Below are positions 3,090 to 16,754 of a stretch of DNA of 64,000 nt, piece by piece. Origin of the DNA: Haloferula luteola (lineage in GTDB: Bacteria; Verrucomicrobiota; Verrucomicrobiia; Verrucomicrobiales; Akkermansiaceae). The notes under the pieces were generated by a model. It did no database searches. It had not been told where the DNA came from and worked only from the letters and a program-made list of their open reading frames with translations. The stretch spans positions 1-64,000 of the forward strand of contig NZ_JACHFD010000022.1 in NCBI RefSeq assembly GCF_014201715.1, given 5' to 3'. The stretch's first letter is position 1. Every line of letters starts with the position of its first letter. The position numbers and the translations under genes are program-made.

Positions 3090-3725
3090 TTAGGAGATCA
3101 ATCGTTGGCTAGCAGCGCAATGAGGATAGCGTCTTGCCTCGATGCGGTAGTAGGCTTTCAAGAGATCGATCTCAAGGTTCACGGCCTGGCGCACTTCACG
3201 CAGAGGGAGGTCGAGGAGAGGTTGGAAATCCACCTCTTCGAGCGGCAGACAATCGGAGACGTATGCGAGTGCGATGGCATCCTTGAAGACCCTCGCGCCA
3301 TCTTCGGTGAAGCGATAGGGCTTTGGGTAGAGGAATTGATTGATGAGGTTGAAGAGGGAGCTTTCCTGAGTGGAAACTCGATCCGTGGTGCCCATGGTGA
3401 AGCCTAAGACAAAGGCTTCATCCATGAGGGTGAGGCCACGGCCGAGGAGGATGTGGATGTAGTCGTGCTGCTCAAGCGTGACGCGGCCTTTGAAAAACCC
3501 GAATCCGCCGAAGTGAAATTTCGGGTTTTCAGTGAGTTGGACGATGAGAGGGACTTGGTCCTGCGAATTGCCGATTTCCATGAGGCTCTCGTAGGCCTCC
3601 CGCAGGGTTTTCTGGTCGTCGTCCAGATAGGTGATCCAAGTTTTCAGGAACTCACTGAATTTCTTCTTCTCCGGAATGCCGGGGCGTTCGGCGGGGTTCG
3701 AGGAGTCGTCGCAGGAATCAGTCAT
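3090..3725 (-). CDS. conserved protein with a COQ4-like HDxxH-x11-E metal motif
   Basis: A 211-aa soluble, mostly helical protein without signal peptide or membrane segment. The segment H87-D88-x2-H91-x11-E103 reproduces exactly the spacing of the HDxxH-x11-E zinc-ligand motif that defines COQ4, a protein of ubiquinone biosynthesis. A glycine-rich turn and a hydrophobic helix follow, as in COQ4. Overall similarity outside the motif is not obvious, and Verrucomicrobia typically use menaquinone, so the match may reflect a COQ4-like fold with another job. The C-terminal region is rich in charged helices. It is transcribed convergently with the AEC gene and divergently from the nine-gene envelope locus. 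Function unknown. Confidence 0.7.
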   Translation of the reverse strand: MTDSCDDSSNPAERPGIPEKKKFSEFLKTWITYLDDDQKTLREAYESLMEIGNSQDQVPLIVQLTENPKFHFGGFGFFKGRVTLEQHDYIHILLGRGLTLMDEAFVLGFTMGTTDRVSTQESSLFNLINQFLYPKPYRFTEDGARVFKDAIALAYVSDCLPLEEVDFQPLLDLPLREVRQAVNLEIDLLKAYYRIEARRYPHCAASQRLIS

Positions 3726-3955: not shown

Positions 3956-5704
3956 ATGAATATCCCGAACCTTCCTGTGGCCCTCTTGGCCCTGCTCGGT
4001 GGTGTCGCCACCTTGTCCGCTCAGCAGGCCGAAATCCTGACTTACAAGCCTTTGGCGGAGGCGGTTCCCGCTCGTTTGAAGCCGGTGGGTGATGCGCATC
4101 AGATCCCTGTGATTGCCTGGGGGGCGGATGTGGCGACTCAACTGGCGGCGATGGAAGGTTGGTTGCCCGGGGCGAAGCTTGAGCGGGAGGATAATTTTCC
4201 GAAGCAGGTGGAAGCCTGTCTTTCCGGGGAGAGCCCCTATCTTCGTGGTACTCTGCCGATGATTTTACAGGCGCGGAAGGCGTTTCAAAGTGCGGGGACG
4301 GATCTGGCGGTGATTTATCAACTCTCTTGGAGCAACGGTGGGGATTGTTTGGTGGTCCGTGACCGCGTGAAATCGATCCGTGATATCAAGTCGGTGGCGG
4401 TGCAACTGTATGGTCCCCATGAACATCCGGCCATCAAAGTGTTGCAGGACGCCGGAGTGAATCCGGCTGAGGTCAAATTCTTCTACTTGCCCGAGCTGGC
4501 GGCTCCGGTCGATGGAAAGGGTGACAAGATCGCGTCACCGCCGGAGCTGTTCGAAGCTCGTGAGGATGTGGATGCGGTGTGGGTGATCTCTCCCGATGCG
4601 GCTGCGTTGACCGAGGGTGACTATGCGGTGAAAGGCGCGAGGGTCTTGTTCACTTCCAAGCAGGCGAGCCGGATCATTCCGGATGTGTATGCGGTGCGTA
4701 AGGACTATTTGGACGCCCACCGCAAGGAGGTGGAATCCTTCGTTTCCAGCTTGTTGAAAGCGGAGGAAGCATTGCGTGATCGGGTGGCGAAAAAAGATGA
4801 ACAGGCGGCGGAGTTCCGCAAGTTGATGGCGTCGTCCGCCGAGTTGTTGCTAGGGGATGCTGGTCTCGTCGGTGATACGGAGGGCATGCTTTCTGAAGCT
4901 GAGCTGGTCGGCCATTCGGGGAACGTGGCATTTTTCACCGGTCAGGGGACGACCCGCAGTCTGGAAACGCTGACGGAGGAAATTGAGGTGGCCTTTGAAA
5001 AGGCAGGCCGTGGAATCGGTCGGTTCGACATGCCGACGGCCGGATGGGACTGGGTGAAGCTTGGTGCGGGCTTGCGATATGCCGGCGAGGTGAAGGTGGC
5101 CAAGTCGGTGTTCAAGTCATCGGAACAGGCACAGCAAAAAGTGGAGGAGTTTCTGTTGGAGAACCCGGAGTTGAGCGAGCGCGACACGGCCTTGTTTGAC
5201 TTTACGGTGCCCTTTGAGGCGAATCAGGACGACTTCGATCTCAACGATGCCGGACTGCAAAGTTACTTCGGTCACGCCATGGAGATGGTCGATGCATACG
5301 CGGGGACGACGATGATCATTGAAGCGCACGCCGACGGATATTTGCTGATGCGACTCCGTGAAGCTCTGGTGAGCAATGATCGGGAGTTGTTGGGCAAAAT
5401 CCAGAAGGTGCTCCGGCTTGGAGCTTCGCCGACCCAGCAGACGGCGACCTTGTTGGAGCGATCCTTGAAGACCAAATCGGCAGAGCGGGCGGAAGCTCTA
5501 CGGAATGCCTTCATCCGTTTTTGTGATGGCAAGGGACTGAAGCTCGACGAGAACCGCATTGTAGCGGTGGGGCGTGGGTCGACTGCTCCGATTTATGAAA
5601 ATGCGGACACGCCTCAAAAGCGCGCTGAGAACCGCCGTGGTGTCATCATCCTCGAACGGCTGGAGGTGCTGGAGGTCGGGGATGATGTGAAGATCGATTT
5701 CTAA
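3956..5704 (+). CDS. periplasmic solute-binding protein fused to an OmpA peptidoglycan-binding domain
   Basis: A 582-aa protein, first gene of the locus. Residues 1-24 are a signal peptide (hydrophobic PVALLALLGGVATL, cleavage near SAQQ). Residues 25-340 resemble NMT1/THI5-type type 2 binding proteins, with a central YGPHEHPAIKVLQDAGVNP stretch. A helical linker (350-430) leads to a C-terminal OmpA-like domain (about 425-570). This keeps the peptidoglycan-contacting Asp (D460, in EAHADG) and Arg (R511, in KSAERAEAL). They are 51 residues apart instead of the usual 15, so the domain has about 36 extra residues. The reading frame extends upstream to 3830, but ATG 3956 starts the signal peptide. 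Inferred role: a binding protein tethered to the cell wall, serving the ABC transporter encoded downstream. Its ligand is unknown. Confidence 0.82.
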   Translation: MNIPNLPVALLALLGGVATLSAQQAEILTYKPLAEAVPARLKPVGDAHQIPVIAWGADVATQLAAMEGWLPGAKLEREDNFPKQVEACLSGESPYLRGTLPMILQARKAFQSAGTDLAVIYQLSWSNGGDCLVVRDRVKSIRDIKSVAVQLYGPHEHPAIKVLQDAGVNPAEVKFFYLPELAAPVDGKGDKIASPPELFEAREDVDAVWVISPDAAALTEGDYAVKGARVLFTSKQASRIIPDVYAVRKDYLDAHRKEVESFVSSLLKAEEALRDRVAKKDEQAAEFRKLMASSAELLLGDAGLVGDTEGMLSEAELVGHSGNVAFFTGQGTTRSLETLTEEIEVAFEKAGRGIGRFDMPTAGWDWVKLGAGLRYAGEVKVAKSVFKSSEQAQQKVEEFLLENPELSERDTALFDFTVPFEANQDDFDLNDAGLQSYFGHAMEMVDAYAGTTMIIEAHADGYLLMRLREALVSNDRELLGKIQKVLRLGASPTQQTATLLERSLKTKSAERAEALRNAFIRFCDGKGLKLDENRIVAVGRGSTAPIYENADTPQKRAENRRGVIILERLEVLEVGDDVKIDF

Positions 5705-5728
5705 CTACCTAACATTTTTTCAACGATC

Positions 5729-6478
5729 ATGTGCAAAACCATTTGTTTCATGACCCTTGTGGCGGTCTCCTTGGGGGTGACCAGTTGCGACCGTCCGCGC
5801 AGTGGAGCGAATCCACCCCCATCGCGGGAGCAAGATTTTGCCAGCCCGTTGGTGTCTTCCGAGGTCTCGGGAAAGGGGGATCCTGAACCGATTCCCAGCA
5901 CTACGCCGCCGGGATCGCATATGGATCCAAGTTCGAATGCTTACATTGTCTTCGATGGGAGCGGTAGCATGGCAGGGGAGCCGATTGAGGAAGCGAGGCG
6001 TGCTGTGACAGCTTTTGTTCAGGCGGCACCGACCGATTTGAATTTGGGACTGTATGTTTTTGATCAGAACCACCAGGGAGGTTCGGAGTTGGTGCCGCTG
6101 GGCCGTGGAGAAAAGCAGCGTGCGCAGCTCCGCCAGCAAATTGCGGGGATCTCCGCCGGCGGAGGCACTCCTCTCGGCGCTGCATTGCGTGCGGGGACCG
6201 AGTCGCTGATGGCTCGCTTCCAACAGCAGCTGCGCTATGGAGACATTCGCCTGATTGTGGTGACGGACGGGGAGGCCACCGATCCACGAACTTTCGACAA
6301 GAGCATCCGCTACGCCCGGGATTACCATGTGCCGATTTACACGGTGGGCTTTCGAGTCCGAGAGGAACATGCATTGCGGCGTTTCTCCGAGGCCTATCTG
6401 ACGGCCAATGATGAACAGCAGCTGCTCAACGCTATGCAGGAAACGCTGGCCGAGCTGGACGACGATGCGGATTTTTAG
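5729..6478 (+). CDS. VWA-domain lipoprotein
   Basis: A 249-aa protein. Residues 1-20 are a lipoprotein signal ending in VTSC with C20 as the lipidated residue. The residue after it is Asp, which in enterobacteria retains lipoproteins in the inner membrane. A Pro/Ser-rich linker runs to about residue 70. A von Willebrand factor A domain follows with a complete MIDAS: D76-x-S78-x-S80 (FDGSGSM), T147 (GGGTPLGAAL) and D180 (VVTDGEATD). It should bind a divalent metal and a protein ligand. VWA proteins are often paired with AAA+ ATPases, and one is encoded at the end of this locus. It lies 24 bp after the first binding-protein/OmpA gene and 24 bp before the second. Confidence 0.88.
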   Translation: MCKTICFMTLVAVSLGVTSCDRPRSGANPPPSREQDFASPLVSSEVSGKGDPEPIPSTTPPGSHMDPSSNAYIVFDGSGSMAGEPIEEARRAVTAFVQAAPTDLNLGLYVFDQNHQGGSELVPLGRGEKQRAQLRQQIAGISAGGGTPLGAALRAGTESLMARFQQQLRYGDIRLIVVTDGEATDPRTFDKSIRYARDYHVPIYTVGFRVREEHALRRFSEAYLTANDEQQLLNAMQETLAELDDDADF

Positions 6479-6502
6479 CCATCCTCCGACTGACGAAGCG
6501 AT

Positions 6503-8101
6503 ATGAATGCGGCCACCAAGCTTGCCATCCTGCTGTTTGCGGTTTGCGCCGTGATTGCCGGAGCATGGTTCGCGCTCAAGCCGATGTTCCATGAACATCA
6601 GCAGGAGGAAGCTCGTCGCAAAGCCGAAGCTTTTGAGCGTGAGATTTCGGAGGCCAAGGTGGATTCGACCCTGCGGATTGCTGGTGATGGCTATCTTGGG
6701 TATTTCTTTGCGTCGTCTTTGGAGACCCGAAAGCTCGCGGTTCGCCAAGGAGTGGGAGTCGAATGGGTGGACGATGGAGGCACGATTTCTGATCGGGTTG
6801 AGAAGCTCGCTTCGGGAGAGTATGACATCATCGCGATTCCAGCTGCGGAGTATCTCGTGCAAGGACAGCGCACGGGGTTTCCGGGAGTCATTGCGGTGGC
6901 GATTGCCCGTTCCAATGGTGGGGATGGGGTTCTGGCCCGTCGCGACGTGTTGACATCGGGGAACGTCTCGGACCTCAACGACGCTTCTTTGAAATGGGTG
7001 TATACCGGAGGAAGTCCGAGTGAGTTCCTCGTCGAAATCACGGTCAAAGACCTCGATTTTTACCAACTGCGTGGGGCGGATGAGTCGGCGGGAGGCTGGC
7101 GAGTGCCTGTAAATTCGTCGGAAGAAGTTTATCGGCGGGCGATGAATGGCCGCGGAGATGTTTTCGTGCTCTGGGAGCCCGACATTTCCCGGGCGCTGAA
7201 GGAGAATCCGAATCTGACGTATGTGTGGGGATCGGACAAATTTGCTGGCTACATCGTTGACTATTTTGTGGTGAACAAACGCACCTTGGCAGAGCGAGAA
7301 GGGGAGGTGTTGGACTATTTCAAGGCCTACTTCCGGGCCTTGGATCATTACCGTCGGAATGCGTCGGAATGCATCGCCGAGATGGCTCGTTGGGGGGGAG
7401 TCAGCCGCGAGGCAGTCGAGGAGATCGTGAATCAGCGAAAGATCGACTGGATCGACCTCAGTGACAATTGCCTTCAGCAGTTTGGAATCGAAGGGGTCGA
7501 CGATGCGGTGCCCGCGCAAGAAGGTGTCATCGACACTCTCCTGTCGTGTGCCGATGTGCTTGCGGATACGGGAAAGCTAGGAACTGGAGACCTGCGGGAT
7601 CCCTATCGTCTCATCAACACCTCGGTTTTGCAGGCGCTGAAAAACTCGGCTCCACGATCGCTCGGCCAAAGTGATCATGGAGCAACGGACTTCGAGGCGA
7701 TGACCGAAGCGCAATGGGCTCAGCTCCGGGAGGTGGCCAAGTTGCAGGTGAGACCGGTTCGGTTTCGCAATGGCACCGAGCTGGAAGTCGGAGCGGCAGA
7801 GGAAATCGACAAGATCGCCAAGTTGCTTTCTGTCAACTACCCCAACTACCGGGTAAAGATCCGGGGTCATACTGGTGGCGAAGACACCGAGGCGAATCGT
7901 GAGCTTTCGAAGCTGCGTGCGGAGGTTGTTCGCAAGCGATTGGTGCTGGTCCACGGCTTTGACGAGGATCGCCTGCAAGTTGAGGGGGTGGGTTCCTCCG
8001 AGCCGCCTGAGGTGCGACCGGGGGAGAATCCTCGTTCGCGTGCTTACCGAGGTCGTGTGCCCCGGGTGGAGGCCATTCTTCTGGAGCGAGGAGGACTTTA
8101 A
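6503..8101 (+). CDS. membrane-anchored solute-binding protein with degenerate OmpA-like domain
   Basis: A 532-aa protein with an uncleaved-looking N-terminal helix (residues 5-26) followed by a short charged helix, then an NMT1-like binding domain (about 50-330; landmarks YDIIAIPAAEYLVQG, VYTGGSPSEFLVEI, DVFVLWEPDISRAL). The C-terminal 100 residues are OmpA-like (VRPVRFRNGTELE, then GHTGGEDTEANRELSKLRA). Glycine 458 stands where OmpA domains have the peptidoglycan-binding Asp, and the spacing to R472 is one residue short. The final NRR motif is also altered (RGRVPRVE). It may therefore bind the wall weakly or not at all. It is not a close copy of the first fusion protein, so the two probably arose by old duplication or separate fusion. 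Neighbours lie 24-25 bp away on each side, consistent with one operon. Confidence 0.8.
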   Translation: MNAATKLAILLFAVCAVIAGAWFALKPMFHEHQQEEARRKAEAFEREISEAKVDSTLRIAGDGYLGYFFASSLETRKLAVRQGVGVEWVDDGGTISDRVEKLASGEYDIIAIPAAEYLVQGQRTGFPGVIAVAIARSNGGDGVLARRDVLTSGNVSDLNDASLKWVYTGGSPSEFLVEITVKDLDFYQLRGADESAGGWRVPVNSSEEVYRRAMNGRGDVFVLWEPDISRALKENPNLTYVWGSDKFAGYIVDYFVVNKRTLAEREGEVLDYFKAYFRALDHYRRNASECIAEMARWGGVSREAVEEIVNQRKIDWIDLSDNCLQQFGIEGVDDAVPAQEGVIDTLLSCADVLADTGKLGTGDLRDPYRLINTSVLQALKNSAPRSLGQSDHGATDFEAMTEAQWAQLREVAKLQVRPVRFRNGTELEVGAAEEIDKIAKLLSVNYPNYRVKIRGHTGGEDTEANRELSKLRAEVVRKRLVLVHGFDEDRLQVEGVGSSEPPEVRPGENPRSRAYRGRVPRVEAILLERGGL

Positions 8102-8126
8102 CCTTGGATCGGATTTTGCCCAACGC

Positions 8127-9020
8127 ATGAGCCCCGAAAATGGTCGACCGCCCCGCCTGAGTTTGCAGGACCTCACTGACGAAGAAGCCATCTTTCAAGC
8201 CGTCCGTAATCAATGCATTCAATCCCCTTTTACCATTCTGCCTTTGGCCTTGGCGGCGGGAATGTTGCTGCTGACGGGAGCTTTCAGTTGGGGCTTCTTC
8301 GGGGTTTTTGCTGCGGTGGTGCTGGGAGTCGTGGGAGTGGCTGCTTTCGTTTTCAATTTGTGGATCCGCGGCGAAACGTTGGCCAGGCGGCACGTGAAAG
8401 GCCTGATGGAGCGGATGAAGAACGAGCGGCAAGCGGCATTGAGCGACGTCGAAAACATGTGCGCGAGCATCGGGCTGGGCGAGGCGGCCAAGGAGGCGCG
8501 GGAACTGGGCGAGGCCATCGCGCTGTACACCGGATTTCTCGAAACGCGAGCTGGAGCCACGCTGGGCGATGCCGTGGGCCAACGTTTGGAATTGGTCGAG
8601 TCCGCGCGGGCGGCAGGTGTGGCGCACTTGCGAAGGGCTGCCGAAATTCACATGGCGCTCCGTGGCATCGACATGGCTCAGTTGCGAGCGGAGGTGACCG
8701 AGTGGGAGGCAGCACTTCACTCGCCATCCGCCCATCGTTCGGTGCTGGAAAGCAAGTTGTTTGCCCATGCTCAGCAGATCGAGCGGTATGGAAAATTGTC
8801 CGGCGTCAGGGACGAGCTGATTGCGCGTTCCAACGAGCTCGAGGCGGCGATCAAGAATGCGTATTTGTCGGATGCCGGCCGTTCCGATCTTACCCGCGAT
8901 GGGGAAATCGACAATCCCGCCCATCGCTTGTCGCGAGTGATCTCCGCCGCCGAGGTGGCCGAGGCGGAACTGCGTGAGTTCCTCCACGAAACCTCATCTC
9001 TCTCCCACGAAAGTACCTAA
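8127..9020 (+). CDS. two-TM helical membrane protein of the envelope locus
   Basis: A 297-aa protein I cannot assign to a named family. The first 30 residues are cytoplasmic and charged. Two adjacent hydrophobic helices (about 35-54 and 55-78) form a hairpin. The remaining 220 residues are almost entirely predicted helix, rich in A, E, R and L with heptad-like spacing, typical of a coiled-coil domain. The frame is open upstream to 7875, but that would overlap the preceding gene by 226 bases. ATG 8127 gives a 25-bp gap like the others in this locus. It lies 12 bp before the PspA-like gene, the tightest gap here apart from those at the ABC ATPase gene, suggesting that the two coiled-coil proteins work together. 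A role as membrane partner or adaptor of the PspA-like protein is inference. Confidence 0.7.
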   Translation: MSPENGRPPRLSLQDLTDEEAIFQAVRNQCIQSPFTILPLALAAGMLLLTGAFSWGFFGVFAAVVLGVVGVAAFVFNLWIRGETLARRHVKGLMERMKNERQAALSDVENMCASIGLGEAAKEARELGEAIALYTGFLETRAGATLGDAVGQRLELVESARAAGVAHLRRAAEIHMALRGIDMAQLRAEVTEWEAALHSPSAHRSVLESKLFAHAQQIERYGKLSGVRDELIARSNELEAAIKNAYLSDAGRSDLTRDGEIDNPAHRLSRVISAAEVAEAELREFLHETSSLSHEST

Positions 9021-9032
9021 CCCACCAACGAT

Positions 9033-9863
9033 ATGGACCTGTTCAAAGCAATCGCCCGGTTTTTCACCTTCAAATGGCTGTGGGCCGGCGGCAAGGTCAA
9101 CAAGGCTGCCGAAGAGACCTTCACCTCCTCTGCTGAGGGAGTGGGGATGGCCTTCGACATTCAAAAGGACAAGGAGATCAAAGACCACGCCGAGTTCATC
9201 AAGGCGGTGGCGACCTTGGCTGCCAATGTCGAATCTTCTCGCGAGCGCTTGGAAGAAAGCCTCGAGCGTGAGGAAGCTGCCATCAAGATGCGCGATGCTG
9301 CCAAAATTCAGCTCGCTAAGGTGCTCAAGTCTGCAGGGCTTTCCCGCGAGGAAGCGCAGACCCACCCAGAGGTGATGAAGTGGCAGCAAGCTTTCATCGA
9401 CTACCAGGGCAAGATTCGAACGGAAGATGAACTTCAGGCACGATTGGAGCCGGAGCTAGCCGAGCGCCAGGCGCGGCTCGATCAGCTGAAAACTCAACTC
9501 GCGAAGCGGCAGCGGGAGATCAAAGGGCTCGACGATCAAAAAGCTCAAGCGATTGCCGACTTTGTCGATGCCAAGACGACCTCTGAACTCATGGATCGAC
9601 TCAGTGGTCTTGAGGCCTCCTCGGACCGCTCGGCGATCAACACGGTGACCTCGCGGATTTCCCAAATGAAGCAGCAAGCCCGTATCAAGTCCGAGCTTGA
9701 AGGGGCATCTGCCGATTCGATTGAAGTCGAGTTGGAGAAGACCCTGGCTGATCAGGCAGGTCTTGATTTGCTCGACGAAATGCTCGCTGCGGACACTCCG
9801 GAATCCGTTTCCGACAAAGCGGCTGCGGACCAGCCCGATTCCGAAGGCGAACTCAAGGCCTGA
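9033..9863 (+). CDS. PspA/IM30-like coiled-coil protein
   Basis: A 276-aa protein without signal peptide. The N-terminal segment (MDLFKAIARFFTFKWLW) looks like the membrane-binding amphipathic helix of PspA/Vipp1 proteins. From about residue 60 to 175 it is a long charged coiled coil (RERLEESLEREEAAIK; ERQARLDQLKTQLAKRQREI). A shorter helix pair follows (residues 190-225, SRISQMKQQARIKSELEG), then an acidic disordered tail. This order matches the ESCRT-III-like layout of the PspA/IM30 family, which binds stressed membranes from the cytoplasmic side. Sequence identity to classical PspA is low, so PspA-like is a structural call. Position next to a two-TM helical protein and in an operon with an AAA+ ATPase supports a membrane-maintenance role. 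Confidence 0.65.
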   Translation: MDLFKAIARFFTFKWLWAGGKVNKAAEETFTSSAEGVGMAFDIQKDKEIKDHAEFIKAVATLAANVESSRERLEESLEREEAAIKMRDAAKIQLAKVLKSAGLSREEAQTHPEVMKWQQAFIDYQGKIRTEDELQARLEPELAERQARLDQLKTQLAKRQREIKGLDDQKAQAIADFVDAKTTSELMDRLSGLEASSDRSAINTVTSRISQMKQQARIKSELEGASADSIEVELEKTLADQAGLDLLDEMLAADTPESVSDKAAADQPDSEGELKA

Positions 9864-9900
9864 GTCGCGGCACTCAACCCACTCTCAAATCCAGTAACTC

Positions 9901-10941
9901 ATGAAATCCACTTTTGCATCCCTCGCTTTGGCGGCGGGCCTGTTGACCCCTGCGGTTGCTTCGGCTCAGGCCGATGGAGAATACACCTTCGGTTGGAGCA
10001 ACTACATTGGCTGGTGTCCGGTGAAATACCTCGCTGATACTGGACTGCTCGAAAAGCATGCGAAGAAGAACGGCATCTCCATTCATGTGGAGGAGTTCGG
10101 CTATGTTGCGTCGATTGACGCATTCAAAGCGAAGAGCATCGACGTGGTGCCCGTCACAACGATGGATGCCCTGACTTTGATCAGCCAGGCGGGCATCGAT
10201 ACTTCATTCTTCGTGGTGGGTGATTACTCGAACGGCAACGACATGTGGCTCGCGAAAGGGGCACGCTCGGTGGCGGACCTCAAGGGAACGACGGTTTACG
10301 GGGAAGAGTTCACGGTCAGTCACTACTTGGTTTACCGTGGTATCGTGCTCGGAGGGCAAAAGGAATCGGACTACAAGTTTGCCCACCGGGCAGAGAAAGG
10401 GATCGTGAGTGGATTTACCACCGATGATGCTGCGAAGAAATCGACGGCGACCTGGAATCCTCATGCCCTAGGCTTGCTGCAGCAACCCGGGGTGGTTTCG
10501 GTCTTCGATTCCTCGAAGATTCCGGGGGAGATCCTGGATGGATTCGTGATGCGGAGTGATTTGCTGAAGGCCGATCCGAAGCTGGCCACGGCGATATCAG
10601 GGGCGTGGTTTGAGGCCATGGCAACTCTGAGCGGCGGCGGCCAGGACGCGGAGGATCTTATTGCCACGATCGCGCAAGCCGCGAATGTCACGGTGGCGGA
10701 GGCCAAGGCGCAGTTGAAGACCACCCACTTCTACACCACTCCAGAATCGATGACGGCTGAACTGAAATCGAAGGCTCATCAGCAAGCGACGACCTTGGTG
10801 CGGGACTTCTGTTTTGATCAGGGACTGCTCGGTGAAGATGCCGAAGAGGCAGGATACTTGGGCATCCAATTCGCCGACGGGAAGGTCCTTGGTGATTCAG
10901 GAAATGTGAAACTCCGATTTCAGCCGGTGGCTGCGGAGTGA
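9901..10941 (+). CDS. ABC transporter periplasmic binding protein (NMT1/THI5-like, urea-carboxylase-region type)
   Basis: A 346-aa protein with a clear signal peptide (residues 1-22, cleavage after ASAQA or ASA). The mature part follows, from memory, the pattern of the binding-protein family named after urea-carboxylase gene clusters (TIGR03427). Landmarks are WSNYIGWCPVKYLAD at the start, VVGDYSNGND, TVSHYLVYRG, TTDDAAKKSTATWNP, KIPGEILDGFVMRSDLLK and the terminal GDSGNVKLRF. No urea carboxylase or allophanate hydrolase is encoded here, so urea as ligand is not supported; the family name reflects context only. It precedes the permease by 37 bp. It is the only one of the three binding proteins in the locus without an OmpA domain and is the best candidate for the transporter's soluble receptor. 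Confidence 0.88.
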   Translation: MKSTFASLALAAGLLTPAVASAQADGEYTFGWSNYIGWCPVKYLADTGLLEKHAKKNGISIHVEEFGYVASIDAFKAKSIDVVPVTTMDALTLISQAGIDTSFFVVGDYSNGNDMWLAKGARSVADLKGTTVYGEEFTVSHYLVYRGIVLGGQKESDYKFAHRAEKGIVSGFTTDDAAKKSTATWNPHALGLLQQPGVVSVFDSSKIPGEILDGFVMRSDLLKADPKLATAISGAWFEAMATLSGGGQDAEDLIATIAQAANVTVAEAKAQLKTTHFYTTPESMTAELKSKAHQQATTLVRDFCFDQGLLGEDAEEAGYLGIQFADGKVLGDSGNVKLRFQPVAAE

Positions 10942-10978
10942 GCGTCCCATTTGAGTTCTCTCCAGCCCGATCACTCGC

Positions 10979-11827
10979 TTGAATTTTCTTCGCACTGATG
11001 CCCGCATTCCCTGGTACGGGCGGCTTGCCTTGATGCTGCTGCCCGTGCTGCTGCTGGGGTTCACCTATGTCCGGAAATCAAGCGAGCTGGAGGCCACCGA
11101 TCGCGCCCGCCTGATGCCAACCGTGGATAAGTTGGTGGATGCCGCCAAGAAGGTCGCATTGCCGATTCCTGCTCCGGATCGAGAAAGTGAGCGGCGCAAA
11201 GAGCTGCGCTTGGAGCGGCAGTTTCTCATCTATAAGGATACGGTTGCCAGCTTCAAGCGGATGGGTTGGGCCGCGATGGTGATTCTCCTGGCCGTGCCGA
11301 TAGGGGTGATGATGGGGAGCTATCCCTGGGCGGAGAATCTGGGTCGGACGGTGATGGTAATCCTGAGTATGATCCCGGCGCTGGCCCTGCTCTCGATCTT
11401 GTTTCTGACCCTTGGCACGGGAGAGGTCGCCAAAGTGGCGTTGATCGTTCTAGGTGTGTTTCCTGTGGTTTGTTTGGACACCTATCTGAGAGCTAAAGCT
11501 TTGCCCCGGGAGCAATTCTTCAAGGCGCAGAGTCTCGGTGCCTGTGAGCTGGAGCTTCCCTGGAGGGTGGTATTTCCGCAGATCTGGCCGGAAGTGCTCA
11601 ATACGATCCGGCTCAATTTGGGAGTGATGGCGGTGTTGATGATTGCCGGGGAATCGATCTCTGCCGAGGCGGGAATCGGCTATCGGATTTTCATCAAATT
11701 CTATCGGACGACAGCGATGAATTCGACGATTGTCTATGTGATCTGGCTCACTCTTCTGATGTTTCTCCTCGATGCGGCGATCAGCCAGTGGATCAAGCAA
11801 CGATACAAATGGCTGGCGGGGCAATGA
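10979..11827 (+). CDS. ABC transporter permease (SsuC/TauC-type)
   Basis: A 282-aa inner-membrane protein starting at TTG 10979. ATG 11030 is an alternative that would trim 17 residues. The first helix (about 12-30) is followed by a charged extracytoplasmic or loop segment of some 55 residues (31-85), longer than in typical SsuC/TauC permeases. Four to five further helices follow. The EAA-type cytoplasmic loop that docks the ATPase is visible as KAQSLGACELELPWRVVFPQ. The family forms homodimers with a nitrate/taurine-class ATPase. The stop codon overlaps the start of the ATPase gene in an ATGA arrangement, so translation is probably coupled. No strong ribosome-binding site is seen upstream of the TTG. 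Confidence 0.86.
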   Translation: MNFLRTDARIPWYGRLALMLLPVLLLGFTYVRKSSELEATDRARLMPTVDKLVDAAKKVALPIPAPDRESERRKELRLERQFLIYKDTVASFKRMGWAAMVILLAVPIGVMMGSYPWAENLGRTVMVILSMIPALALLSILFLTLGTGEVAKVALIVLGVFPVVCLDTYLRAKALPREQFFKAQSLGACELELPWRVVFPQIWPEVLNTIRLNLGVMAVLMIAGESISAEAGIGYRIFIKFYRTTAMNSTIVYVIWLTLLMFLLDAAISQWIKQRYKWLAGQ

Positions 11828-12789
11828 GTGATCCGATCGAACGCAAAGTGGTGGTGGAAATCCGCGACGCGGAAGTGACCTACCGATCGCGCCCCAAGTT
11901 CCGGTGGCGGGATGGGCCAGGAATCGAGCGAGAGAGCTTCACGGTGTTCAGAAATCTGAATCTTCGGATTCGTGAGGGAGAGTTCGCGACGATTGTCGGC
12001 CCGAGTGGCTGCGGGAAATCGACGCTCTTCCGCTTGATTCTCGGGTCCCAGTTTCCCACGGCGGGAGAAGTATGGGTGGATGGGGAGCCAGTGCGGCATG
12101 TGACTCCGAAGACGGGCATCGTTTATCAGCGGTATTCGCTGTTTCCTCATCTTACGGTCGCGGACAATATCGCTTTGGGTCCTTTGCTGCGACAGACCGG
12201 GCCTCTGGAATCGACGGTCCGTGGTCTTGGCCCGCGGTACCGGAGGGTGCAGCGTGAAGCACGCGCCGAAGCCCGTGGATTGCTCGGGCGCATCGGTTTG
12301 ACGAACAAGGATGGGGATAAGTATCCGCAGGAACTTTCCGGTGGCATGCAACAGCGGGTGGCCATTGCTCAGGCCATGATCGTGAAGCCCAAGGTACTGA
12401 TGATGGACGAGCCCTTCGGTGCGCTGGATCCAAGTACTCGCGAGGACATGCAGCTGTTCATTCTGGAGCAAGCGGCGGCGCACGGTCTGACGGTGATTTT
12501 TGTGACCCATGATCTCGACGAGGCGGTGTTTTTGGGCACGCGTTGCATCGGAATCTCCCAGTACTATACTTGTCGGGATAACGAACCTAAGGTGGGAGCG
12601 AAGATCGTCACGGACCGGGATATCTCGGCGGCACTGGATCTGCCCCATCCCCGTCCACCGAAGGTGGTCGATTCTCCAGCTTTTCGGGAGCTTCGAAGGA
12701 AGATTCACGAGGATGTTCTCGATCCTGAAAGGTGTCAGAGGGTCGACGCCTTCGATCACGATCATCCCGACAGTCAGCCGATTCATTGA
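11824..12789 (+). CDS. ABC transporter ATP-binding protein (NrtD/TauB-type)
   Basis: A 321-aa cytoplasmic ATPase with all motifs: Walker A 59-66 (GPSGCGKS), Q-loop Q102, signature LSGGMQQ 171-177, Walker B with D195-E196 (VLMMDEP) and switch H229 (VTHD). Two features are unusual for the nitrate/taurine class. There is a charged insertion before Walker A (residues 20-40) and a second of about 20 residues between the Q-loop and the signature (near 122-145, PLESTVRGLGPRYRRVQ). A C-terminal extension of about 80 residues follows the nucleotide-binding core. It overlaps the permease gene by four bases and ends two bases before the AAA+ gene. It energises the transporter formed by the upstream permease; the substrate is unknown. 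Confidence 0.9.
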   Translation: MSDPIERKVVVEIRDAEVTYRSRPKFRWRDGPGIERESFTVFRNLNLRIREGEFATIVGPSGCGKSTLFRLILGSQFPTAGEVWVDGEPVRHVTPKTGIVYQRYSLFPHLTVADNIALGPLLRQTGPLESTVRGLGPRYRRVQREARAEARGLLGRIGLTNKDGDKYPQELSGGMQQRVAIAQAMIVKPKVLMMDEPFGALDPSTREDMQLFILEQAAAHGLTVIFVTHDLDEAVFLGTRCIGISQYYTCRDNEPKVGAKIVTDRDISAALDLPHPRPPKVVDSPAFRELRRKIHEDVLDPERCQRVDAFDHDHPDSQPIH

Positions 12790-12791
12790 TC

Positions 12792-14615
12792 ATGCATGAC
12801 ACGACGCCGGGGCCGACGCCCCCATTCATGGAAGCCCTGGTCGATGGGGTGAAGTTCCGCGGTAAGCGGGTATTTGTCCTCACCGGTGATACTCTTGGGA
12901 CTTTTCCTAACCGGGATGATGCCGGGTACTCCACGCTGGAGGAGCGGCTTTGCCAGAGTTTTGGTGAAAGGTTCACGATGGTGAGGCTCGATCTGGCGAT
13001 GGGCGTCGGGTTCTACGACCGAGGTCAGCGTCGAGAGTTGTTCGACGCGATCGGATGGAAGTCTCCTGAGGAGGTTCAGACATCCGCAGACCCATTGGGC
13101 GGGTTGATCGACTTTGGCTCGGAGATGGTGAACCGCCATCTGCGTGGCCGCCAGGGCTCTCCGGCCCCTCCGCCTGCTCCGACACCGGCCCAGCTTCTTG
13201 AGCGAACACGCCAAAGGCCGGGAGCGGCATTGGTTTTGCTACGGGAGCTTTCGGAGTCGGTAAGAGAGGCGATGGACCGCGGAGTACGCGTGAAGCCGCT
13301 GGCAACGATCATCCGGCTCGCAGGGGCATTTTTTCCACCGGGGGAATTGGGGCGATTGTCGGAGTTGGATCGGAACCGGCTGGCGACGCTACTGAGTTGG
13401 ATGGGAGATTCCGGGTATGCGGCGGGGGGGCATGTGACGTTCCTGGTGGCGGATACTCGCGCGGAATTGAATACTCGGATTCCGGCGCTGCCTCTATGCC
13501 AGGTGGTGGAAGTGGGTTTTCCTGATGAGGCGACGCGACGCCATTTCATTGAGCAGTGGACGATTCCGAGCCGAGGGGAGGGTGAACTTTCGACTCCGAC
13601 GTTTGAGCGGGGGATGAACGACTTCATTGAGGAATCTGCGGGTTTAGGGCTTCCTGCGGTGGCTTCGTTGTTGGAGGAGAGCGCCAGTTCGGGGCGATCG
13701 GTGACGAGGGAGTCCGTCAGCCAATTGCTGAATGAGCTTTTGCGTGCGCAGTTGGACGGAGTGGTGACGATCAAACGACCCCGTCATGGCGATCGCGACC
13801 TTTGTGGTTATGGGGGCCAGAGGGAAGCGATTCGGCGAATTTTTCGTGATGCTGAGGATCCAGAAACCGCGATTGCTGCGTTTGTGGTTTCGGGACCGAA
13901 TGGAGTGGGGAAGACCTTCAATGTGGAAGCGCACGCCGCGGACTCGGGAAGAATTGTGATCGAGTTGTCGCGCATCCGTTCGTCGGATTTTGGCGGCACG
14001 GATCGATTGTTTGAGACGGTTCGGCGCTATGTGGAGATTTACGGGAAGGTGGCGATTTTGGTCGATGAGGCGCATGCTGCTTTCGGAAGCATCCACTCGG
14101 GTGATACCCACGAGACGGAGAAGCGATTGATGGCGAACATCATCAAGATGATGTCAGACAAGGATTTGCTTTCCAAGGTGGTGTGGTGCCTGATGACGAC
14201 GCGGCCCGACCTTTTGGATCCCGACGTGTTGAGCCGGGCGCCCAAGCAGATTCCCCTCTTTGATCTTGAGGGAGAAGAGCGGCAGGATTTTTATGCCGCG
14301 ATGTTGTCTCGGCGAGGAATCCAGGTGGAGGCCGGGGAACTGGAATCTGTCGTCGCGGCAACTTCTTGGTATTCGAATCGAGATCTCGATTCGCTGATTC
14401 GAGAGGTCAAGAGCATGCGGCGAGAAGATCCGGGGATTTCTTTGCTGGAGGTGCTTGAAACCTGGTCGGCTTCGAAGGGCATTGTGGCGAAGCGCGAGGC
14501 GCAAGCCTGGGTGGCAGCGGCGACGAGCAGCTATCCTGGCTTGGTGCCGGATCGGTTCAAGGTGCCCGATTTGGACGACCGATTGCGTCGGGAGAAGGGG
14601 GTATTGGGAGGCTGA
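12792..14615 (+). CDS. AAA+ ATPase with degenerate N-terminal half, last gene of the envelope locus
   Basis: A 607-aa cytoplasmic protein. The C-terminal half is a complete AAA+ module: Walker A 368-375 (GPNGVGKT, K374), Walker B with D425-E426 (ILVDEAHAAF), a sensor-1-like TTRPDLLDP and an LSRA segment where an arginine finger is expected. The N-terminal half (VFVLTGDTLGTF; then GHVTFLVADTRAELNTRI) has an AAA-like layout but no P-loop, so it may be an inactive first domain or an adaptor. No GAFTGA loop is present, so it is not a PspF-type sigma-54 activator. The start at ATG 12792 follows the ABC ATPase stop by two bases; a longer frame from 12732 would overlap that gene. With the PspA-like protein it could form a Vps4/ESCRT-III-like pair, or a MoxR-like pair with the VWA protein (inference). 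Confidence 0.82.
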   Translation: MHDTTPGPTPPFMEALVDGVKFRGKRVFVLTGDTLGTFPNRDDAGYSTLEERLCQSFGERFTMVRLDLAMGVGFYDRGQRRELFDAIGWKSPEEVQTSADPLGGLIDFGSEMVNRHLRGRQGSPAPPPAPTPAQLLERTRQRPGAALVLLRELSESVREAMDRGVRVKPLATIIRLAGAFFPPGELGRLSELDRNRLATLLSWMGDSGYAAGGHVTFLVADTRAELNTRIPALPLCQVVEVGFPDEATRRHFIEQWTIPSRGEGELSTPTFERGMNDFIEESAGLGLPAVASLLEESASSGRSVTRESVSQLLNELLRAQLDGVVTIKRPRHGDRDLCGYGGQREAIRRIFRDAEDPETAIAAFVVSGPNGVGKTFNVEAHAADSGRIVIELSRIRSSDFGGTDRLFETVRRYVEIYGKVAILVDEAHAAFGSIHSGDTHETEKRLMANIIKMMSDKDLLSKVVWCLMTTRPDLLDPDVLSRAPKQIPLFDLEGEERQDFYAAMLSRRGIQVEAGELESVVAATSWYSNRDLDSLIREVKSMRREDPGISLLEVLETWSASKGIVAKREAQAWVAAATSSYPGLVPDRFKVPDLDDRLRREKGVLGG

Positions 14616-14690: not shown

Positions 14691-16754
14691 TCAGGGTGTC
14701 TGACCGTTGATGGTGTAGGATCCGAGCGAACCATAATCGCTGTAACCGTTGGCGAGTGGATCTCCTTTGCCGACACCGCTCACGTGCAGGTAGTAGGTTC
14801 CGGGACCGAGGTTTGCGATAGGATGAGCGTAGGTGAGCTCACTGGGGTTGTCGCTGGTGACGAGGTTGCCCTGAGCATCGCGGATCTCGGCGAGGAGATC
14901 GAGATTGGTGCTGGGGAAGGCTCCTTCAATCAAGAACTCGGCGGTTCCTGTGGCGCCGACCGTGAAGCTGAAGACATCGACATCCGCGGTGGTTTGGAGA
15001 AGACCAGAGGCGGTGAGGGTTCCACCCTGGCTCTGCAGGGAGGTCGCGCTGGTCAAGGTGTCGCCATGGTCGTCGCTACGGTAGCTGAAGCCATTTTGGC
15101 CGGTGATGATGGCAAGGTCATCTTCAGGGTTGTCGGCATTCAGGTATTCGCCCTTCGACCACTGGGTTAGGGATTGGTAGTAGCCGACGCCCATGATCGG
15201 AGCCCAACCGGTTTCACCGTTGCCATGGCCCTGGTAGTAGCCTTCGACAGGATTGGTACGTCCATCGTGGCGAAGTCCCAAGGTATGCCCGATTTCGTGA
15301 GATGCTGCCTCTGCGATGTAGCGGCTGCTATTGGCCAACATGTCGGAAAAGATCCAGCAAGGAGTGTCGCCGGTCCAAGTGAAGGAGTTCACGTAGGCGA
15401 CTCCTCCAGCGCTGCCGTACCATTCGTTGTCGGGGGTGACAATGCATCGGATGCGGCGGTTTGAGGGCGCGGCGAGGTAGACATTTTCGTCGGTGGTGAC
15501 GTTGATCTGAAAGGGAGCGTAGTCTTCGACTACACGGGTCCAGATTTCGGTCATGGCTCCGGTGGAGAAGGTCTCGCTGATGCCCCGAGCGGTGATGGTG
15601 GCGCCGTTGGCCCAGTAAGTTCCCGAGACCGTCTGGCCGTCAAAGTCGAGGTAGGCCACCGCAGTGGCTCCGGGGAGACTATGAAGCAAGGGTATCTTGG
15701 AAGGCTCGATATCGTCGTTGAGAATGGTGCCGACGGCCGTGGCGTCTCCCAGGCTGGCGCCTGCCGGTTGGGATAGAGTCAGAGTGAGGGTCTCATCGGA
15801 TTCCAGCAAGGTGTCGCCGACCACTGGGACGCTGATGCTGGTGGAGGCGGTGTTCTTGGCGAAAGTGGCGACGCCTTGGGTGGATGCGTAGTCGCTGGGA
15901 CTGGTGGCGGAGCCATCGGACGTCGCGTATTGGACGGTAATGATGTTCTTCCGGTCTTTGGCGCTGAGGGTGAGGGGAAAGATGAGGTAGGTGGTTCCAC
16001 TTTGGCCTTCGGAGACGGTGGCGTCTCCGACAGAAATGGTGATACCGGAACCTCCGCTGGTGCCTCCGCTCCCGTCCGTGGTTCCTCCTCCTTTGCCTCC
16101 GCCGCTGGTTCCCCCCGTGGATCCGGGCTTGGCTTCTGCGATCTCCAATTGAGGCAGTCCCATGGCGACGGTGGTTCCGTGGTCTTCGATGGAGGAGCAG
16201 ATCAGATCGCTTACAGCGTGCCGTTCCGCGATGAGGTCGGAACCCGAGGGGCGGAATTCGTAGGCGATCGGTTCGCCCGGGTAGTAGAGCTGCGCGAGGA
16301 AGAAATCAGCTTCCGGGTTTTCCTGGATGAGGAGGTCTCCAGCAGGATCGCCTTCCAACTGGAGGTGCATCATGCGGGTGCCGTCGTCCTGCACGGCCAT
16401 GCGCGTGACCACTCCACGGAGGGTAGGAATGGAGCGTGCCAGAGAGAGGGAAATCCGATTTCCCTGAGTGGCATTGCGAAGAGATTCGAAGGCGTCCTTG
16501 CGAATCGGAATGGAGCTGCGGCGGGCTTCTCTGGGGTGGGTGGCCGTCGTTTCCCAAAGGTGACCTGTTGAGGTGACTTTGGTGAGTGCCTGGAGATTTC
16601 GAGCCGCTGTGTGGTTGATCGCTTGGCGAGCGGGGGGCGCGGTGGACACCTCTGGGGATTCAGTGGGCTGAGGTTGGAGGGATGTCGAGGCGATCCAAGT
16701 GGTCGCGACGAGCAGGCCTCCAGAGATCCAGAGCAGAGTTGGGCGAGTTTTCAT
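14691..16754 (-). CDS. secreted metzincin metallopeptidase with Calx-beta and pre-peptidase domains
   Basis: A 687-aa exported protein. It has a signal peptide (residues 1-24) and an N-terminal propeptide-like region to about 200. A Gly/Ser/Thr-rich linker (about 205-228) is followed by a Calx-beta domain (about 230-340, starting ITISVGDATVSEGQSG and ending GTILNDD). The catalytic domain has the extended zinc motif HEIGHTLGLRHD at 486-497 and a Met-turn-like APIMGVGYY. The C-terminal 110 residues look like a bacterial pre-peptidase (PPC) domain. The domain order and the sentence QSLTQWSKGEY after the active site are shared with the 1685-aa protein at 33898-38955, so the two are paralogues. 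A terminator follows the stop. Substrate unknown; extracellular protein degradation is the likely role. Confidence 0.88.
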   Translation of the reverse strand: MKTRPTLLWISGGLLVATTWIASTSLQPQPTESPEVSTAPPARQAINHTAARNLQALTKVTSTGHLWETTATHPREARRSSIPIRKDAFESLRNATQGNRISLSLARSIPTLRGVVTRMAVQDDGTRMMHLQLEGDPAGDLLIQENPEADFFLAQLYYPGEPIAYEFRPSGSDLIAERHAVSDLICSSIEDHGTTVAMGLPQLEIAEAKPGSTGGTSGGGKGGGTTDGSGGTSGGSGITISVGDATVSEGQSGTTYLIFPLTLSAKDRKNIITVQYATSDGSATSPSDYASTQGVATFAKNTASTSISVPVVGDTLLESDETLTLTLSQPAGASLGDATAVGTILNDDIEPSKIPLLHSLPGATAVAYLDFDGQTVSGTYWANGATITARGISETFSTGAMTEIWTRVVEDYAPFQINVTTDENVYLAAPSNRRIRCIVTPDNEWYGSAGGVAYVNSFTWTGDTPCWIFSDMLANSSRYIAEAASHEIGHTLGLRHDGRTNPVEGYYQGHGNGETGWAPIMGVGYYQSLTQWSKGEYLNADNPEDDLAIITGQNGFSYRSDDHGDTLTSATSLQSQGGTLTASGLLQTTADVDVFSFTVGATGTAEFLIEGAFPSTNLDLLAEIRDAQGNLVTSDNPSELTYAHPIANLGPGTYYLHVSGVGKGDPLANGYSDYGSLGSYTINGQTP

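Follow-up and report, generated by a model that had tools for sequence, protein, structure and literature searches.

In eukaryotes and archaea, ESCRT-III proteins carry a short C-terminal tail that is recognised by Vps4. For bacterial PspA, chaperones or PspF have merely been suggested in the role of Vps4 in work on the PspA structure (PMC11746142), and Ravi et al. (2024; PMC11237479) state that the control of assembly is not known for PspA homologues that lack an accompanying AAA ATPase. The latter authors describe operons encoding PspA, transmembrane (TM)-Snf7, a double-AAA+ ATPase, an ATP-binding cassette (ABC) ATPase, a permease and PBPB-OmpA, and propose for them a role in remodelling membranes with the energy of ATP, in connection with the transport of solutes. 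Here we analyse a nine-gene locus (genes g1 to g9) of Haloferula luteola, found in a stretch of 64,000 nucleotides, hereafter the window (assembly GCF_014201715.1, contig NZ_JACHFD010000022.1, positions 1 to 64,000). The locus is a real, widely conserved system that has been little studied, although comparative genomics has already noted others of its kind. We hypothesize, with a probability of roughly one in two, that its products form a self-contained machine of the envelope, centred on a bacterial pair resembling ESCRT-III and Vps4 and under the control of solute sensors anchored in the wall and the membrane.

The initial annotation, made from the DNA letters alone, had placed nine co-directional genes at positions 3956-14615, and this placement was correct: the gaps are of 2-37 bp with one 4-bp overlap (24, 24, 25, 12, 37, 37, -4 and 2 bp from g1 to g9). 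The genes, with domains assigned by Pfam and NCBIfam profile searches, are as follows.

3956-5704, + strand, g1: secreted solute-binding protein (SBP) of the SsuA/NMT1 type with an OmpA-like C-terminal domain and an acidic-aromatic tail (domain search, orthologue residues)
5729-6478, + strand, g2: VWA protein, probable lipoprotein, with motifs of the metal-ion-dependent adhesion site (MIDAS) type (domain search, motif counts)
6503-8101, + strand, g3: SBP with an OmpA-like domain, TM-anchored as judged by eye, canonical wall-binding Asp replaced (domain search)
8127-9020, + strand, g4: two-TM hairpin with a cytoplasmic helical part, family unnamed
9033-9863, + strand, g5: divergent PspA/Vipp1-like protein (ESCRT-III superfamily) with a C-terminal tail
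9901-10941, + strand, g6: free periplasmic SBP, TIGR03427-like
10979-11827, + strand, g7: ABC permease with a TTG start as called (BPD permease family)
11824-12789, + strand, g8: ABC ATPase
12792-14615, + strand, g9: classical AAA+ ATPase with a degenerate N-terminal AAA half and Walker A and B in the C-terminal half

The statement of the initial annotation that no functional description of this set exists has to be withdrawn, since Ravi et al. (PMC11237479) already describe and interpret a PspA/double-AAA/ABC/PBP-OmpA operon; beyond that work, no other description of the nine-gene set was found in a literature search. Their operons and the present locus have in common a PspA-like protein, an AAA+ ATPase with an inactive N-terminal AAA copy, an ABC ATPase, a permease and a PBP-OmpA protein. 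A single PBP-OmpA protein is mentioned in the main text of that paper, from which the terms vWA and von Willebrand are absent, whereas here two PBP-OmpA proteins, a VWA protein and a free SBP are encoded; likewise, those operons contain TM-Snf7, whereas g4, whose comparison was confined to PspA and g5, combines a TM hairpin with helices. The tail of g5 does not figure in that text, and the optional nature of the ABC genes is a result of the present analysis. The canonical Psp and Lia systems share with this locus a PspA-superfamily protein and an envelope setting, and differ in that no PspB, PspC, Toastrack-type or PspF-type family was detected among the nine genes and the four neighbours scanned. 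The present analysis adds to earlier work the full nine-gene order, which includes a VWA protein and a pair of receptors, and a phylogenetic profile that agrees among the genes; it also shows that the ABC module is dispensable and that the core can be split between loci, and it brings out the tails of g5 and g1 and the divergence of the window's clade.

Conservation was assessed by searching named genome contigs with an alignment of g9, and 80 of the 246 confirmed loci were taken, so that the counts describe that sample; 44 of them, with at least 8.6 kb before g9, were informative. The order SBP-OmpA, VWA, SBP-OmpA, TM-coiled-coil, PspA-like, SBP, permease, ABC, AAA+ is exact in 20 of the 44, and because the same order recurs so often the arrangement lies far beyond chance. 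By record title, these 20 loci come from Verrucomicrobia, Victivallales, Acidobacteria, Proteobacteria, Desulforapulum, Hydrogenedentota, CSSED10-310, Sedimentisphaerales and unplaced metagenome-assembled genomes, sources among which binning errors are possible. Another 20 informative loci (19 from Poribacteria, one from Thermoanaerobaculia) have the PspA-like and AAA+ genes without the ABC genes, and the remaining four show other arrangements. The PspA-like g5 and the AAA+ g9 are the most stable pair of the locus.

The same unit emerges from whole genomes. Three separate searches of 288 genomes of the phylum, for near-full-length orthologues of g9 (E<=1e-49), g1 (E<=1e-130) and g5 (E<=1e-60), returned the same six carriers (G000, G277, G210, G132, G023 and G189), which include two pairs of close kin, so that their independence is incomplete. 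In one of the six, G132, g1 and the genes g5-g9 are on different contigs. A weaker, more distant second tier comprises relatives of g9 in 11 further genomes and of g1 in four, and three of its genomes (G118, G165 and G162) hold SBP-OmpA/permease/ABC/AAA+ loci with a VWA gene nearby. Within the window's own family, g5 was found in only 4 of 260 genomes, so the unit is patchy, and the window's three relatives there (L019, L119 and L120) have all nine genes. Across the 20 full-order loci the pairwise protein distances of the nine families correlate with r of 0.51-0.94, part of which shared ancestry alone would yield. In each of the nine families the window clade stands apart, with a mean identity of 16-38% to other members and of 63-87% within the clade. 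Taken together, the neighbourhood scan, the correlated distances and the matching genome profile support that part of the initial annotation's reading which treats the genes as one co-inherited unit.

In order to place g5, a profile of 31 members was compared by hhalign with a profile of nine canonical PspA proteins, which gave 95.3%, E 2.1e-8, over 212 columns that cover most of the g5 alignment; the same test on the coiled-coil protein g4 gave only 0.1%. Among the 31 orthologues, 12 match PspA_IM30 at E<=0.01, and g5 is the sole match to the PspA family in its own genome at E<=0.001. The AlphaFold2 model (mean predicted local distance difference test score, pLDDT, of 80) starts with a helix, which is followed by a long hairpin and two additional helices (2-18, 34-101, 112-196, 199-224 and 227-253), a Vipp1-like plan, and the first four Foldseek rows are Vipp1. 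On these comparisons g5 is a predicted, divergent ESCRT-III/PspA/Vipp1-like protein, and we infer that it binds membranes and polymerises. Canonical PspA is rare in the window's phylum, with matches in 5 of 115 genomes at E<=1e-12.

Of the 65 g5-family proteins that end at a stop codon and have 240 aa or more, 55 terminate in Leu-Pro-Glu/Leu/Val (LPx); one record (L023 and L035) stands twice in this count, from which eight shorter PspA-like open reading frames, all from Poribacteria loci, were dropped. None of the nine canonical PspA proteins has such an ending. Among 45 representatives, Pro occupies position -2 in 36 and Leu position -3 in 37, and the preceding linker is variable, no residue reaching half of the representatives at positions -6 to -30. 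The ten proteins without LPx are four from the window clade, three extra copies from Poribacteria, and those of L105, L108 and L111, the last two being Ile-Pro-Glu variants. Where a Poribacteria locus has more than one PspA-like copy, the tail is present on exactly one of them (7 of 7 loci). The extra copies, one to three in each of L084, L087, L092, L096, L097, L099 and L106, are shorter and tail-less, and may be mere truncations. No description of the g5 tail was found in the literature search. By analogy with ESCRT-III, we regard this tail as a candidate AAA+ docking tag, which would likely offer a hand-hold for g9.

The C-terminal half of g9 is a classical AAA domain whose nearest solved relatives are VCP/Cdc48, with Vps4 lower in the list. 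Walker A and B are present in this half in all 83 orthologues, and the N-terminal half has a P-loop in none of them (0/83), nor in any of the four window-clade proteins. Comparison of the two halves by hhalign (24 sequences) gave E 3e-4 and a probability of 40% over 162 columns of the AAA core, moderate support for an AAA-like N-terminal half. The pore loop reads WFG in 65 and YYG in 13 of the 83. The pair thus resembles the eukaryotic and archaeal ESCRT-III/Vps4 system in joining a superfamily coiled-coil protein, with a short C-terminal tail after a linker, to a classical AAA+ ATPase, and differs from it in the degenerate AAA half of the window's g9 and in the extracytoplasmic receptors attached. 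Since no MIT domain was matched in this protein by Pfam at E<=0.1 and its N-terminal half looks like a degenerate AAA domain, g9 was not filed as Vps4.

The ABC importer g6-g8 is an optional part of the system. Two loci, L020 and L022, keep g1-g2-g3-g4-g5-g9 and have no g6-g8. The sister of L022 in the phylogeny of g9 is L035, a complete nine-gene locus, with a Shimodaira-Hasegawa-like approximate likelihood ratio test (SH-aLRT) support of 100. The distribution of ABC genes on this tree requires 6 changes, whereas shuffled labels require 23 on average; in the labelling, 15 of 89 rows are unscored, several others are short contigs and L108 counts as ABC-less only because its locus ends early. 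The only g6-like genes in the genomes of L020 and L022 (E 4e-31 and 5e-39) sit, as judged by eye, in operons with urea-carboxylase-associated-type and biotin-carboxylase-type genes, and not in a displaced ABC module. Three Poribacteria chromosomes gave no match to g6 at E<=1e-10; in these the core itself is split, with SBP-OmpA/VWA/SBP-OmpA at a second locus apart from the PspA/AAA locus, and g4 follows the receptor/VWA locus in L144 and L145 and sits at the PspA/AAA locus in L087. Both kinds of locus of this split system also hold proteins of about 600 aa whose starts look alike by eye (L144 13946-15742, L145 15409-17205 and L096 8046-9833), the two scanned having no Pfam match. The initial annotation had envisaged an ABC-linked machine in which a wall-tethered receptor connects the transporter to a PspA/AAA+ pair; the co-inheritance and the pair stand, and the connection is not supported in that form, given that the ABC module is absent from L020, L022 and the three Poribacteria chromosomes.

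As for the module itself, the SBP, permease and ATPase of the urea/guanidine-carboxylase-associated ABC transporters are homologous to g6, g7 and g8. The two differ in that g6 scores 324.3 bits against TIGR03427, just below the curated cut-off of 333.9 (four orthologues score 111-153 bits), and in that no carboxylase genes adjoin g6. A phmmer search of g6 against PDB sequences gave no match. The window's genome holds a second SBP/permease/ABC set (L149 6378-9742, contig C4), and similar sets in G023 and G210 (L147 and L148) adjoin, by eye, urea-carboxylase-associated-type genes. Guanidine or urea transport was considered as the function of the locus and dropped, the carboxylase-type operons seen by eye in G023 and G210 lying separately from it.

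On the outer side, the SBPs encoded by g1, g3 and g6 all belong to the SsuA/NMT1 class and are related to one another, and each family has a set of invariant residues of its own. In g1 the SsuA-like SBP domain is matched at E 4e-8 and the OmpA domain at E 0.03, below cut-off. OmpA-like wall-binding domains hold diaminopimelate through a conserved Asp and Arg, and the corresponding Asp460 and Arg511 of g1 are invariant in 15/15 orthologues. In g3 (SsuA_fam at a weak E 1e-4, OmpA at E 1e-13) the canonical Asp is lost, being Gly in the window and Arg in 15 others, and Arg472 is kept in 16/16; its N-terminus is a TM helix that looks uncleaved by eye. The VWA domain of g2 is matched at E 1e-16, with DxSxS in 32/32 orthologues and the Thr pattern in 20/32, and g1 ends in DF in 31/32 and DFNF in the other, 26/32 fitting DF[DNE]F (the record named above is again counted twice in both sets of 32). 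With both motifs conserved, a contact between the g1 tail Asp and the g2 MIDAS is conceivable. The initial annotation called g2 a lipoprotein, which fits the Cys seen by eye after the hydrophobic start in the window and three close relatives; the lipobox pattern itself occurs in 1/4 of these and 1/27 elsewhere, and by eye the other lineages resemble ordinary signal peptides. That the locus spans the envelope, as had also been proposed, is supported by its predicted parts. Finally, g4 belongs to no Pfam or NCBIfam family and has two TM helices, the remainder being helical; Foldseek gave no match under E 1, which is not proof of a new fold.

A Thermoanaerobaculia locus (L080 5427-9930) encodes an SBP_bac_11-VWA fusion, a TM protein as judged by eye, a protein without a Pfam match, a PspA-like protein and an AAA+ ATPase. 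It is the same theme with other parts and another class of SBP.

The part of the proposed envelope machine that was computed comprises gene content, order, co-occurrence, the optional ABC genes, the conserved catalytic, binding and tail motifs and the superfamily relations; polymer formation, tail recognition, sensing, the direction of the signal and the ligand are what we infer from it. In such a machine g5 would coat or remodel the inner leaflet of the membrane, and g9, as an ATPase of the Cdc48/Vps4 class, would grip the conserved tail of g5 and extract subunits from the polymer, with g4 perhaps holding the pair at the membrane. The secreted, wall-binding g1, the membrane-anchored g3 and the VWA protein g2 may form a sensor or tether responsive to a ligand or to the wall, and the g6-g8 importer would be an add-on, probably importing the same kind of ligand. 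A more specific form of this proposal, a ligand-gated, envelope-spanning bacterial ESCRT in which receptors and VWA protein act via the TM partner to switch an ESCRT-III-like polymer, the LPx or LKA tag is read by the double-AAA+ ATPase and the ABC transporter is accessory, is put forward only tentatively.

Several observations weigh against the proposed machine. As a single sequence, g5 matches PspA_IM30 at E 8e-4, under the Pfam cut-off, and its best Foldseek match has E 2.6e-3, none reaching E 0.001. Alignment of g5 by VIA-align was discarded as proof, the Z scores of Vipp1/PspA (10.8-11.3) being tied with those of unrelated coiled coils (best 12.0). The window clade departs from its relatives, with a g5 tail of Leu-Lys-Ala (LKA) in 4/4, a g9 pore loop of SDFG in 4/4 and SRAPKQ in place of the RRPGR found in 58/83 others, so that the activity of g9 there may differ. 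Profile comparison detected no relation of g4 to PspA or g5. The genomes of L041 and L080 gave no match to g1, so the PspA/AAA pair can also stand without these receptors. ABC genes are present in 45 of 74 scored tree rows, three of them outgroup rows, and transport may thus be central in those many carriers. Lastly, promoter- and terminator-like patterns at the locus are no commoner than in shuffled sequence, so a single transcript is assumed from gene spacing.

An alternative is that the locus is a solute importer first of all, in which a single ABC transporter is fed by three binding proteins and the PspA-like/AAA+ pair does no more than maintain or assemble it. Members of all three SBP families match SsuA_fam or TIGR03427, the ABC genes lie between g5 and g9 in 20/44 loci, the distant second-tier loci also have SBP-OmpA, permease and ABC genes, and a link to solute transport was suggested by Ravi et al. 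(PMC11237479). Two of the SBPs are nevertheless fused to OmpA-type domains. In addition, L020 and L022 lack the ABC genes and keep all six others, and the core loci of the three Poribacteria chromosomes have no ABC genes either, which makes a dedicated importer rather doubtful.

The resemblance of g9 to Cdc48/VCP, the conserved Asp/Arg of the g1 OmpA-type domain and the conserved DxSxS of g2 would equally suit quality control or disassembly, in which g9, with g5 and g4 as adaptors, extracts damaged membrane proteins while the periplasmic proteins watch for gaps in the wall or membrane and not for a solute. Such a role appears unlikely, given that the family-specific invariant SBP residues suggest real ligand binding and that no protease family is found among the nine genes; the only metzincin-like gene among the four scanned neighbours is convergent. 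The least probable reading, and in our estimate a very improbable one, is that the locus serves stress resistance or defence in the manner of Ter/TelA, with SBP-VWA and coiled-coil membrane proteins directed against toxic agents or phage. It is suggested by L080, where the g5-g9 pair follows the SBP_bac_11-VWA fusion, but PADLOC gave no match at E<=1e-4 except the ABC-type matches of g8, and the XpaC family occurs in 0/145 genomes of the phylum. The XpaC/TelA relation was for this last reason rejected and is left as an analogy.

Upstream of the locus, and divergently transcribed, lies one further gene.

3090-3725, - strand, g0: 211-aa protein with an HDxxHx11E motif and no Pfam match

The motif of g0 follows a pattern which we take to be like the zinc motif of Coq4. 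Homologues occur in 2/194 genomes of the phylum and in 13/254 of the family, 10 of the latter 13 without the g5 of the cassette. The gene adjoins the cassette in G277; in L042 (6610-7185) it immediately follows g9, in L065 it comes about 1 kb after g9, and in G347 it lies elsewhere in the genome. It is probably outside the cassette core. On the other side, the convergent gene at 14691-16754 (- strand) encodes a protein with a Calx-beta domain that also matches metzincin and PPC weakly. An Rfam scan of the window gave no match.

For the study of how ESCRT-III proteins are disassembled in bacteria, this locus offers a co-inherited pair and a candidate recognition tail, and its natural variants, with and without ABC genes and with LPE, LPL or LKA tails, provide ready-made controls. 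If the proposed machine is real, it would be a case of periplasmic ligand sensing controlling an ESCRT-like machine, and a bacterial counterpart of the ESCRT machinery.

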